Origin: Gammaproteobacteria bacterium
Lineage (GTDB): Bacteria > Pseudomonadota > Gammaproteobacteria > Enterobacterales > GCA-2746155
DNA length: 50,769 nucleotides
Assembly: GCA_030589945.1 (NCBI GenBank)
Contig: JAUUZN010000009.1
Coordinates: 1 to 50,769 of the forward strand
Reading direction: 5' to 3'
A model generated the notes under the pieces. That model searched no databases. It had not been told where the DNA came from and saw only the letters and a program-made list of their open reading frames with translations. The position numbers and the translations under genes are program-made. Each line of letters opens with the position of its first letter. Position 1 is the stretch's first letter. This document shows, piece by piece, positions 40,729 to 50,769 of this stretch.

Positions 40729-40782
40729 CTAGCTTTTAGCGTGTTTGATAATTTCCATAGCGAGTAACTCGGCGCCATCAAT
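40729..40782 (-). pseudogene. Remnant A of a racemase 3' end
   Basis: The minus strand encodes IDGAELLAMEIIKHAKS-stop; the gene at the right edge of the window ends IDGAELLAMEIINRAKN-stop. 14 of 17 residues agree. Upstream of it, in frame, a TAA stop follows at once, so only the last 17 codons survive. Confidence 0.75.
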
Positions 40783-40853
40783 TTATTCATATTTAAGATT
40801 CACTGACTGAGCGTGATGTCATTGTTACTAGTAGTTCTGACTATCCAAAGCAA

Positions 40854-41627
40854 TTAATTAGATTGTTCCTGATGTTTTACTGAATCGCGTATTTTCTTGA
40901 TTAATGTATCATCAGTTTTGTGACTACCAACCAGATACTCAACAGCCTTGTATTTATAATTGTTAATTTTGATCAGTTTCGATTTCGGATTATCTAAAGT
41001 TGATCTAAAATAATTTATTCCTTCTTTAGATAAGATGATAAAATCAACACGCTCTCTTAAAACTAATTTAATACCATGATTGATTGATGCAGAAGACATC
41101 ACAATTATTGAACTATCTGGGAATCCAAATTCCTTTGCAATGTTGCACATAACGGTTTTTGCGACGCAACTCACAGTAAAATTCCCCGATGATACATCAA
41201 TTGTTAAAGATGATAGCTTACTATTAAGGCCATAAAGTCCATAGTTTATAGTATGCAGGGGCACGAGCCACTTATAGAGATGTTCTCTCTCAGTGGTACG
41301 TGTCATGGGAAAGATAAACAGATTCCTTTTTTTGTTTATCTCCTCTAAACCTCTTTTCCAAGGAATGTAGTTAAATTTATAGTGTAAATTAGTAGGCCTA
41401 AGAATCGAATCTAATTTATCTACAAGTGTACCAACCATATTTCCCTGTTCATTCATGTAGACAAAAGGAGGGTTTAATTCACTTCCTATAATGATGTCAT
41501 TATTTGAATTTTGAGTCTCTGCAGCAAAGGCAAGATTGCTTAACATGAGCAACAAAAATGTAATTAGCCTCGATGGGTTAGCAAGGCTCGACAAGAGATT
41601 AAAATATTTGTTAATTATTAAGGACAT
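40854..41627 (-). CDS. Periplasmic solute-binding protein, family 3-like
   Basis: 257 residues from the ATG at 41627 (a TTG at 41633 is in frame). A signal peptide ends LAFAAE. The SBP_bac_3 fold is recognised by IIIGSELNPPFVYMNEQGNMVGTLVDKLDSI at the start and FIFPMTRTTEREHLYKWLVPL. No permease or ATPase lies nearby, so it is either a stand-alone sensor-type binding protein or its transporter is elsewhere. It sits between racemase remnants A and B. Rather AT-rich. Confidence 0.8.
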   Translation of the reverse strand: MSLIINKYFNLLSSLANPSRLITFLLLMLSNLAFAAETQNSNNDIIIGSELNPPFVYMNEQGNMVGTLVDKLDSILRPTNLHYKFNYIPWKRGLEEINKKRNLFIFPMTRTTEREHLYKWLVPLHTINYGLYGLNSKLSSLTIDVSSGNFTVSCVAKTVMCNIAKEFGFPDSSIIVMSSASINHGIKLVLRERVDFIILSKEGINYFRSTLDNPKSKLIKINNYKYKAVEYLVGSHKTDDTLIKKIRDSVKHQEQSN

Positions 41628-41791
41628 AAACAATCACATTATTTGGGAATAACACTCAGTCTCCATATTTTTGTCATGCAGATAATTGACGTCACTCAAC
41701 TCATAAATAGCAGCATGTAAACGTCCATCAGCATTAGCCAACATAGCACGTTAAGGCGATTAGATAAAAGGGAATAGTGATGTAGAGCAAT

Positions 41792-41895
41792 CTAGTCCTT
41801 AGTTATCTTTATTATTTCCTTAGCGAGTTGTTCAGCTCCATCAATTAAATCAATCACTATTGTTGTTGAGTTTGAGTTCCCAGTAGACACTAATC
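41792..41895 (-). pseudogene. Remnant B of a racemase 3' end
   Basis: The minus strand encodes GNSNSTTIVIDLIDGAEQLA and then KEIIKITKD-stop. The intact homologue at the right edge reads ENSNTTKIDIDLIDGAELLA and then MEIINRAKN-stop. 19 of 29 residues agree with no gap. The match fades upstream and a TAG follows near 41896, so it is only the 3' end. Confidence 0.75.
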
Positions 41896-41909
41896 TCTAC
41901 TAGTCTGTG

Positions 41910-41985
41910 GGGTAAATTTGTTGTGAGTTTTGCTAAGGTTATAATTCCAAAGTTTGCATTTTTAGTGATACTCAAAGCAAACACA
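41910..41985 (-). pseudogene. Fragment of an M17 aminopeptidase gene
   Basis: Minus strand translation FALSITKNANFGIITLAKLT, then TNLP, aligns with [20 protein letters not shown], then KSLP, of the aminopeptidase at 38276-39721 (its DNA at 39407-39482). 16 of 24 residues agree without gap, and DNA agrees clearly. The frame ends at the racemase remnant. It shows that an extra copy of this gene once stood here. It also shows that the in-frame GTG extension of the next gene is spurious. Confidence 0.7.
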
Positions 41986-48576: not shown

Positions 48577-48602
48577 CAATAAAATGGGTAATCAAGTACT
48601 GA

Positions 48603-50390
48603 TTAATAGATGTTCATTTTCAAGACAAGCTCTTTATATCGCTTTTCCTGGTATACCGGTTTTAGAAAGGGACTCATCGTTATCCTCAAAATGGCGGCAT
48701 CTTTTTGTTTATAGGCTATATCTAGCCAATCCAAACACTGTTCAACTTCATCTCGAAAACAATAAACCAATGCAATCCCAAAAGCACTATGATGAGCCGC
48801 AAGCTTGATGGCTGTGTCCAATTCTTCATCTGATTTTGTTTTGTCACCCATCTTTGAATAAGCCATTGAACGTATCATAGGTACTGTTTCTCTATCTAAC
48901 ATTTTATTACTAATCAACAGCGCCTGTTCATAATTACCGATGGCCAGTTCCACACGGGCATTCAATAACAACAAGTGACTTAAATCAGGTAAAATTGTCA
49001 ATGCTTTTTCAACTTCTGCCAATGCCTGTTGATAATCGCCCTGGTAGAAATAAGCTCGTGAAACCACACCTAGGAGGAAGCGATGCACTGGATCAAGAGA
49101 TTCAGCCTTCTGAGCATAAAGCAGTGCTTGTCGATGCTTACCCTGCATGGATTGCAAATTACTCAGCACTCCATAGAGCTCTGCAATGTTAGGATTTAGT
49201 GTAAGAGCGAATTCAAGATCAAGGCGAGAACCTTTGGAGTCAAAATCGAACCATAGCTTGTTAAGTGCCAAGTATTGATAAGCTATTGCCAGTTCAGGAT
49301 CGATTTCTATAGCACGCTCAATAGCCATTCTGGCAATCTGAGGTCCTTCAGTGCGTGAAATCCTATCCACCTTTGTTAAGATATTAAGAACTATACCTCT
49401 ATAGGCGTGAGCTAAGGCATAATTGTTATCCAATAGGATGGCATCATTAAAATATTTCAGTGTTGTCTGAATCTCATCATTACTCTTTGAATTATTTAAG
49501 TAATGTAAGCCTTTCAAGAAGGCTGTATGGGCCTCAGGAGTAACTTTGTGCATCACTGCTTTGAGAGCTGTAGAGTCTCCCATTAACTTAATTTTCAACA
49601 CAGCAACTATTGCGGCTGAAAGTTCATCTTGAATTGCAAAAACGTCAGTGAGTTCTCGATCATAGGTCTCAGACCAGAGGTGACGATCAGAACTTGTTTC
49701 AATTAGCTGTGCGGTTATTCGTACCTTTGTCCCCGACTTACGAACACTCCCTTCTAATATATGGTTAACACCGAGTTGCTTTGCAACTTTTTTTAAATCA
49801 ATATCTTTACCTTTGAAGGAAAAAGATGATGAGCGTGAGGTCACATGAAGATTGGGTATTTTTGACAGAACATTGAGTATCTCTTCCGAGATACCATCAG
49901 AGAAATATTCTTGTTCTGAGTCTGAAGACATATTCACAAACGGTAGTACGGCAATAGATGGTTTTACAGGTTCTTTAGTGGAAATTTCTTGCTGAGCAGT
50001 CTCACCTGAACTTTCTTCAATAACTGCTTCAATGGGCTGCGTTTGAAAGCGGCTTTCATAAATAAAATAACCGAGTGCTACAGCCATTAAACCAATGATA
50101 ATGAAATCTAACTTACGACCAGAATGAGCAAAGACGGCTTCTTCAGAAGATAGGTCGGTTTCTTTCTTGATGCCATCTGGAGTAATCTCAAATGCCCACG
50201 CGAAAAATATCGCGAAAGGAAAGCCAATGGCACCAATGAAGAATACGAAGGTATTGACCCAGTCGGGCAAGTGTAATGCTGGAACCGCCTCAGAAGTAAC
50301 CTGAACAACCACCCAAGTAAGCACCAGATAGGCAACTCCTACCTTAAATACATTACGTTCTTTGAGTTTCGTGAAAAATGGATCTGCCAC
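48603..50390 (-). CDS. TolB-like/TPR membrane protein, copy 2
   Basis: 595 residues, GTG start preceded by GGGA. Same architecture as copy 1: membrane helices near the N-terminus, AFEITPDGIKKETDLSSEE, a TolB-like domain with SIAVLPFVNMSSDSEQEYF and a TPR region. The paralogues are collinear with minor indels and have the same end ...KRYKELVLKMNIY. An ATG in the equivalent upstream position is put out of frame by one extra base, leaving only the GTG. The sequence between the two copies (TonB receptor, TerB) suggests a cluster built by duplication. Confidence 0.85.
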   Translation of the reverse strand: MADPFFTKLKERNVFKVGVAYLVLTWVVVQVTSEAVPALHLPDWVNTFVFFIGAIGFPFAIFFAWAFEITPDGIKKETDLSSEEAVFAHSGRKLDFIIIGLMAVALGYFIYESRFQTQPIEAVIEESSGETAQQEISTKEPVKPSIAVLPFVNMSSDSEQEYFSDGISEEILNVLSKIPNLHVTSRSSSFSFKGKDIDLKKVAKQLGVNHILEGSVRKSGTKVRITAQLIETSSDRHLWSETYDRELTDVFAIQDELSAAIVAVLKIKLMGDSTALKAVMHKVTPEAHTAFLKGLHYLNNSKSNDEIQTTLKYFNDAILLDNNYALAHAYRGIVLNILTKVDRISRTEGPQIARMAIERAIEIDPELAIAYQYLALNKLWFDFDSKGSRLDLEFALTLNPNIAELYGVLSNLQSMQGKHRQALLYAQKAESLDPVHRFLLGVVSRAYFYQGDYQQALAEVEKALTILPDLSHLLLLNARVELAIGNYEQALLISNKMLDRETVPMIRSMAYSKMGDKTKSDEELDTAIKLAAHHSAFGIALVYCFRDEVEQCLDWLDIAYKQKDAAILRITMSPFLKPVYQEKRYKELVLKMNIY

Positions 50391-50434
50391 ACTATAATCC
50401 CATTATTCAAATAATTGTTTATCCATTGGAGTTG

Positions 50435-50463
50435 AATATACTGGTAATAGGAAGACATATCAA
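50435..50463 (-). promoter_or_regulatory. Conserved sigma-70 promoter of TolB/TPR copy 2
   Basis: Minus strand TTGATA (50463-50458), 17-base spacer, TATATT (50440-50435). Matches the promoter of copy 1 in both boxes and spacing. Confidence 0.6.
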
Positions 50464-50529
50464 ATATCGTGGACATGATGAACAGGTAGTCATCCTAGCT
50501 CCATGCGTCAACCTCAGCATCCCGTATCA

Positions 50530-50769
50530 TTAGTTCTTTGCTCTATTAATTATTTCCATTGCGAGTAATTCGGCACCATCAATTAAATCAATATCTATTT
50601 TTGTCGTATTTGAATTTTCATGCACCTGCAAAAGCGTACTTAATTCCGTACAGGCAACAATTGCAGTTGAAAGATTTCGTTGCGCCATGCTATCGACTAC
50701 TCTCAAAAACTGCTGATGGTTTGCAGCACTCAAATCTCCTGCCTTTACAGCCTTGATGACATCAAAAAG
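50530..50769 (-). CDS. Aspartate/glutamate racemase family protein, 3' part (runs off the window)
   Basis: 79 codons of the C-terminus are visible; the frame is open to the window edge, so the gene is longer. The segment STAIVACTELSTLL contains the second catalytic Cys (ACTEL) of Asp/Glu racemases, and the tail IDLIDGAELLAMEIINRAKN is typical. An in-frame TTG at 50733 is not a true start. Two extra copies of this 3' end lie at 40729-40782 and 41792-41895. Confidence 0.8.
   Translation of the reverse strand, partial: LFDVIKAVKAGDLSAANHQQFLRVVDSMAQRNLSTAIVACTELSTLLQVHENSNTTKIDIDLIDGAELLAMEIINRAKN

Follow-up and report, generated by a model that had tools for sequence, protein, structure and literature searches.

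The window, a 50,769-nt stretch of a Gammaproteobacteria bacterium genome, breaks off at its right edge inside the 3′ part of an Asp/Glu racemase family gene (Table 1). An exact overlap of 116 bp (50654–50769) connects it to contig C25, which ends with racemase codons 1–203. When C25 and the window's contig (C48) are joined, the racemase is complete and in frame; its full 244-aa product spans the two contigs, and a truncated gene at the edge was ruled out. The gene order on C25 leading up to the window is gyrA, an amidohydrolase-type gene, ubiG, a PLP-dependent enzyme (PF00291) and the racemase, where gyrA, the amidohydrolase-type gene and ubiG are named from sequence and synteny rather than from a family search. 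A contig break inside the racemase could reflect strains that differ at the end of this gene.

Table 1. Features of the racemase locus, from the conserved left neighbour to the right edge of the window (positions in the window).
Feature	Position	Strand	Remarks
M17 leucyl aminopeptidase, conserved neighbour bordering the block	38276..39721	-	61% identity to G001:C31; adjoins ubiG in the sister genome
248-aa ORF, left end of the block	39968..40714	+	Weak DUF6090 match, E=1.6e-4, below cut-off; no counterpart at the sister locus
R1 downstream flank, 21 nt	40708..40728	-	Overlaps stop of the convergent 248-aa ORF
R1, relic racemase 3′ end	40729..40782	-	18 codons including stop; differences mostly third-position
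Solute-binding protein family 3 gene, between R1 and R2	40854..41633	-	PF00497, E=1.4e-8
R2 downstream flank, 21 nt	41771..41791	-	Part of a repeat
R2, relic racemase 3′ end	41792..41878	-	29 codons including stop; 78% nt identity to 50530-50616
HipA/PI3K-like kinase-fold protein	42022..42819	+	Signal-like N-terminus; weak PF20613 and PF00454, below cut-off
TPR1, 595 aa	42896..44683	-	N-terminal membrane segment, TolB/FlgO-like + TPR; one of about 30 family matches in this genome
TonB-dependent receptor	44928..47537	+	PF00593, E=8e-29; PF07715, E=6e-17
324-aa protein	47602..48576	+	Weak TerB-like domain, PF05099, E=2.5e-4, below cut-off
TPR2, TPR1 paralogue	48603..50390	-	70% aa identity to TPR1; homology also ~83 nt upstream
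Asp/Glu racemase family gene, 3′ part (residues 166-244)	50533..50769	-	PF01177, E=6.6e-38; 5′ part on contig C25

Between the racemase and the M17 gene, the contents of the two intervals are as originally described, with a binding-protein gene in one and a HipA-like kinase, a TonB receptor and a TPR pair in the other. The ORFs of this block include no recombinase or integrase and no recognisable mobility or phage gene, and the four integrase-family (PF00589) matches in the genome all lie on other contigs. TPR1 and TPR2 are diverged duplicates, their upstream DNA included; the TPR/TolB-like family has about 30 matches in this genome versus 12 in a sister genome, with some matches at contig ends. 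Upstream of the binding-protein gene, an open stretch of 36 residues (beginning LANADGRLHAAIYELSDVNYLHDKN; 41640–41741, minus strand) looks like a protein fragment. It had no match in 99 genomes and no Pfam match above the cut-off.

Two further stretches of the block, R1 and R2, encode a racemase C-terminus on the same strand as the racemase itself. R1 translates as IDGAELLAMEIIKHAKS followed by a stop, and 14 of its 17 residues are the same as in the racemase end, IDGAELLAMEIINRAKN. R2 translates as NSNSTTIVIDLIDGAEQLAKEIIKITKD, likewise followed by a stop, where the racemase has NSNTTKIDIDLIDGAELLAMEIINRAKN; searched against the genome by BLASTN, it gave E = 4e-13. Elsewhere, the best identity to the R1 17-mer was 6/17 in the block and 7/17 in the rest of the window. 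The extra racemase ends of the original prediction are therefore real, although R2 had been drawn to 41895 and its similarity runs to about 41878, the last ~17 bases adding nothing clear. A degenerate 35-base pattern allowing up to three mismatches matched exactly three places in the 3.27-Mb genome, namely R1, R2 and the racemase, and its reversed control matched none; no further racemase end turned up elsewhere in the genome. Apart from R1 and R2, the block contains no recognisable fragment of either the racemase or the PLP gene.

We compared the locus with that of one genome of the same genus (G001), the sister. There, ubiG lies beside the M17 gene with only a broken gph between them, and the site has no racemase. 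The sister gph (L110, G001:C31:77262–77612) is a pseudogene with several stops, and it is gone from that place in the window's genome. Past the M17 gene, the sister keeps the order of the window's next two genes (oxidoreductase and acyl-CoA dehydrogenase-like). The adjacency of ubiG and M17, together with the same onward gene order, supports the C25/C48 join, and an assembly chimera was ruled out. The sister locus contains no equivalent of any gene in the block. Because ubiG and the M17 gene are neighbours in the sister, the ∼12.6 kb bounded by the PLP gene and the 248-aa ORF, both included, is a lineage-specific block that arose by insertion here or by loss in the sister.

The closest relatives of the racemase are in Desulfobacterota (up to 54% identity), as are those of the PLP enzyme (up to 71%), and in that phylum the two genes are usually adjacent and in the same order. 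Within the host's order, a comparably close racemase (42–48%) occurs only in one family and in one genome of another, and no full-protein racemase above 54% identity was found in 39 relatives, in 395 genomes of the order or in a scan of 84,980 species. The Desulfobacterota affinity of the pair and the lack of a racemase at the sister site indicate that the racemase and its PLP partner were acquired with the block, rather than the racemase being an old resident gene that served as a fixed target. The suggestion that R1 and R2 mark stepwise boundaries thus held in part: both relics are collinear with the racemase and are found at junctions within a block that the sister lacks. However, island stacking on a resident gene does not fit a racemase that seems itself to have been acquired. 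The PLP/racemase pair (L004:14277–15278 plus the racemase) suggests that a two-gene amino-acid module was transferred horizontally.

Among 62 related racemase loci, none carried a displaced racemase 3′ end; other racemase pieces amounted to two weak matches for the middle of the gene and four for its start. In one Desulfotignum contig (L044:2816–3989), a second PLP–racemase pair faces the first, and its racemase consists of the start only. The genes downstream of the racemase vary freely among Desulfobacterota. An original operon of R2 and the solute-binding gene was rejected, as a conserved racemase-to-solute-binding order is absent there and 1 of 34 next genes was solute-binding-like.

Between R1 and the racemase, 13 of 54 bases are different, and 10 of these 13 differences fall at third codon positions (binomial p = 0.0016). 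For R2 the corresponding figures are 20 of 87 bases and 11 of 20 at third positions (p = 0.04). This bias argues that R1 diverged within a working gene, and both relics appear to have diverged at least partly while coding, with a strong bias in R1 and a weaker one in R2. Over the last 54 bases, the pairwise differences among the three ends are 13, 13 and 16; such near-equal distances argue against R1 and R2 being copies of one dead relic. Similarity to the racemase starts at codon 217 for one relic and at about codon 223–228 for the other, and a leftward extension of the R1 similarity is suggestive only (p = 0.05). Racemase and R2 have an identical run of 17 bp in common (ATTGATTTAATTGATGG); between racemase and R1 such runs reach 9 bp at most.

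Downstream of the stop codons a different pattern emerges. The similarity between the racemase and R2 ends at the stop codon, and the downstream flank of the racemase matches the relic flanks at only 3 and 2 of 21 bases. The two relic flanks agree with each other at 16 of 21 bases, a likeness as good as which arose in 2 of 200,000 random pairs. Short direct repeats (40708–40789 and 41771–41852) flank the solute-binding gene. Since the R1 flank overlaps the end of the 248-aa ORF, the earliest recognisable arrangement would have been a racemase tail-to-tail with that ORF.

R1 and R2 are true marks of gene gain and rearrangement that recurred at a single place, and the cause is probably ordinary recombination rather than a new kind of mobile element. 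Tentatively, and as a reading that falls just short of probable, we favour displacement: R1 and R2 would be the 3′ termini of former racemase alleles, moved aside in successive rounds of recombination. Under displacement, the PLP-enzyme/racemase pair would have entered between ubiG and the M17 peptidase, with the racemase at first tail-to-tail with the 248-aa gene, a junction that R1 would preserve. Later, DNA carrying a related racemase end together with cargo would have recombined inside the racemase at least twice. One event may have brought the solute-binding gene and another the kinase, TonB and TPR genes, each giving the racemase a new end and moving the old one downstream. As no recombinase gene is present, each new stretch would most likely have been joined by homology at its racemase end and illegitimately at its other end. 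The relics, their coding-type divergence, the flank common to R1 and R2, the empty sister site and the foreign affinity of the gene pair are direct results; the sequence of events and the way in which the DNA was joined are inferred.

Several features of the locus agree with displacement. The relics consist of 3′ ends only, as displacement would leave them with no further deletions. An intact gene with a new end and a new flank is expected to yield the pattern observed, in which R1 and R2 have a flank in common and the racemase has a different one. Judged from base differences, what appear to be old 3′ ends lie downstream of the new one and diverged as coding alleles, as displaced ends should. 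On the other side, no event is seen directly, and the comparison genomes include no close relative with zero, one or two inserts. That both relics start near the same codon would be a coincidence for illegitimate joins; R2, although nearer the intact racemase, has a more degraded protein sequence than R1, supposedly the oldest; and the 62 related loci offer no parallel. In addition, full paralogues cut by deletion would show the same coding-type divergence.

There is a strong rival, over which displacement is favoured by a modest margin: R1 and R2 could be remnants of complete extra racemases, tandem or dispersed paralogues, each cut to its last 54–87 bases in a fast-changing block. We regard this as possible, though less likely than not. 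Truncated paralogues would account for the coding-type divergence of R1 and, in the manner of tandem copies, for the common 3′ flank of R1 and R2. The region is also a gene graveyard, with gph broken in the sister and lost here, and racemase duplication with truncation is seen in the Desulfotignum contig. However, two independent deletions would each have had to spare just the 3′ end, to stop at almost the same left boundary, and to leave no 5′ or middle piece of the racemase and no piece of the PLP gene in the block.

Genomic islands stacked at tRNA genes grow by serial accretion and leave repeated gene ends at module borders, and the locus resembles them in both respects. By analogy, elements using the racemase 3′ end as attachment site might have inserted one after another, with each insertion restoring the gene and pushing its old end aside, and might since have lost their integrases. 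The displaced ends are indeed collinear with nearly the same left boundary, racemase and R2 have the identical 17-bp stretch, and restoration with synonymous changes has a counterpart at icd/e14. In contrast to tRNA-gene islands, the racemase is an acquired protein gene, and no conserved identical core is common to all copies, R1 matching the racemase over at most nine bases in a row. With no integrase in the block, cargo free of recognisable mobility genes, no displaced end near any of the 62 related racemases, and no resident intact target at the one sister locus, a site-specific mechanism is unlikely, and the likeness to tRNA islands that was first proposed is not supported in this form. 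Finally, a racemase tail that was duplicated locally as non-coding DNA and then drifted would fit the short direct repeats around the solute-binding gene, but the third-position bias, strong for R1, and the near-equal distances among the three ends make this origin very improbable.

Displaced ends of protein genes are already known, and the racemase case would add no more than one further example, this time in a metabolic gene. At icd in E. coli K-12, prophage e14 brings an incoming 3′ end whose changes are mostly synonymous, and the old end is kept downstream as icdC (PMC4759930, PMC11148124). The racemase locus is similar in that the 3′ end of a protein gene appears replaced and the old end left downstream as a relic; it differs in having no integrase, two relics and far greater divergence, whereas e14 comes with an integrase and a core of 11 bp. 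A second precedent is provided by Vibrio cholerae T6SS effector arrays and Rhs genes, in which 3′ ends are displaced serially without an integrase and for which homology-facilitated illegitimate recombination has been proposed (PMC5361080). There too, successive modules have moved old 3′ ends downstream, but those are toxin genes with immunity genes under selection, whereas the end of a metabolic enzyme is of no obvious use.

We speculate, as a doubtful extension of displacement, that the 3′ terminus of a metabolic gene that was itself acquired may act as a repeated, integrase-free accretion point, with each step that adds unrelated cargo swapping this terminus for a new one while the previous one persists to mark the boundary. 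If displacement is correct, displaced 3′ ends of ordinary metabolic genes could serve, like fossils, to read the order of insertions in accessory regions without mobility genes; the precedents concern toxin genes and a prophage target (PMC5361080, PMC4759930, PMC11148124). If R1 and R2 are instead truncated paralogues, the locus would be a mere variable region with decaying gene copies. Among the related loci, a Desulfobacula contig (L045:3681–3733) carries a short stretch resembling the racemase start ∼6.3 kb upstream of its racemase.
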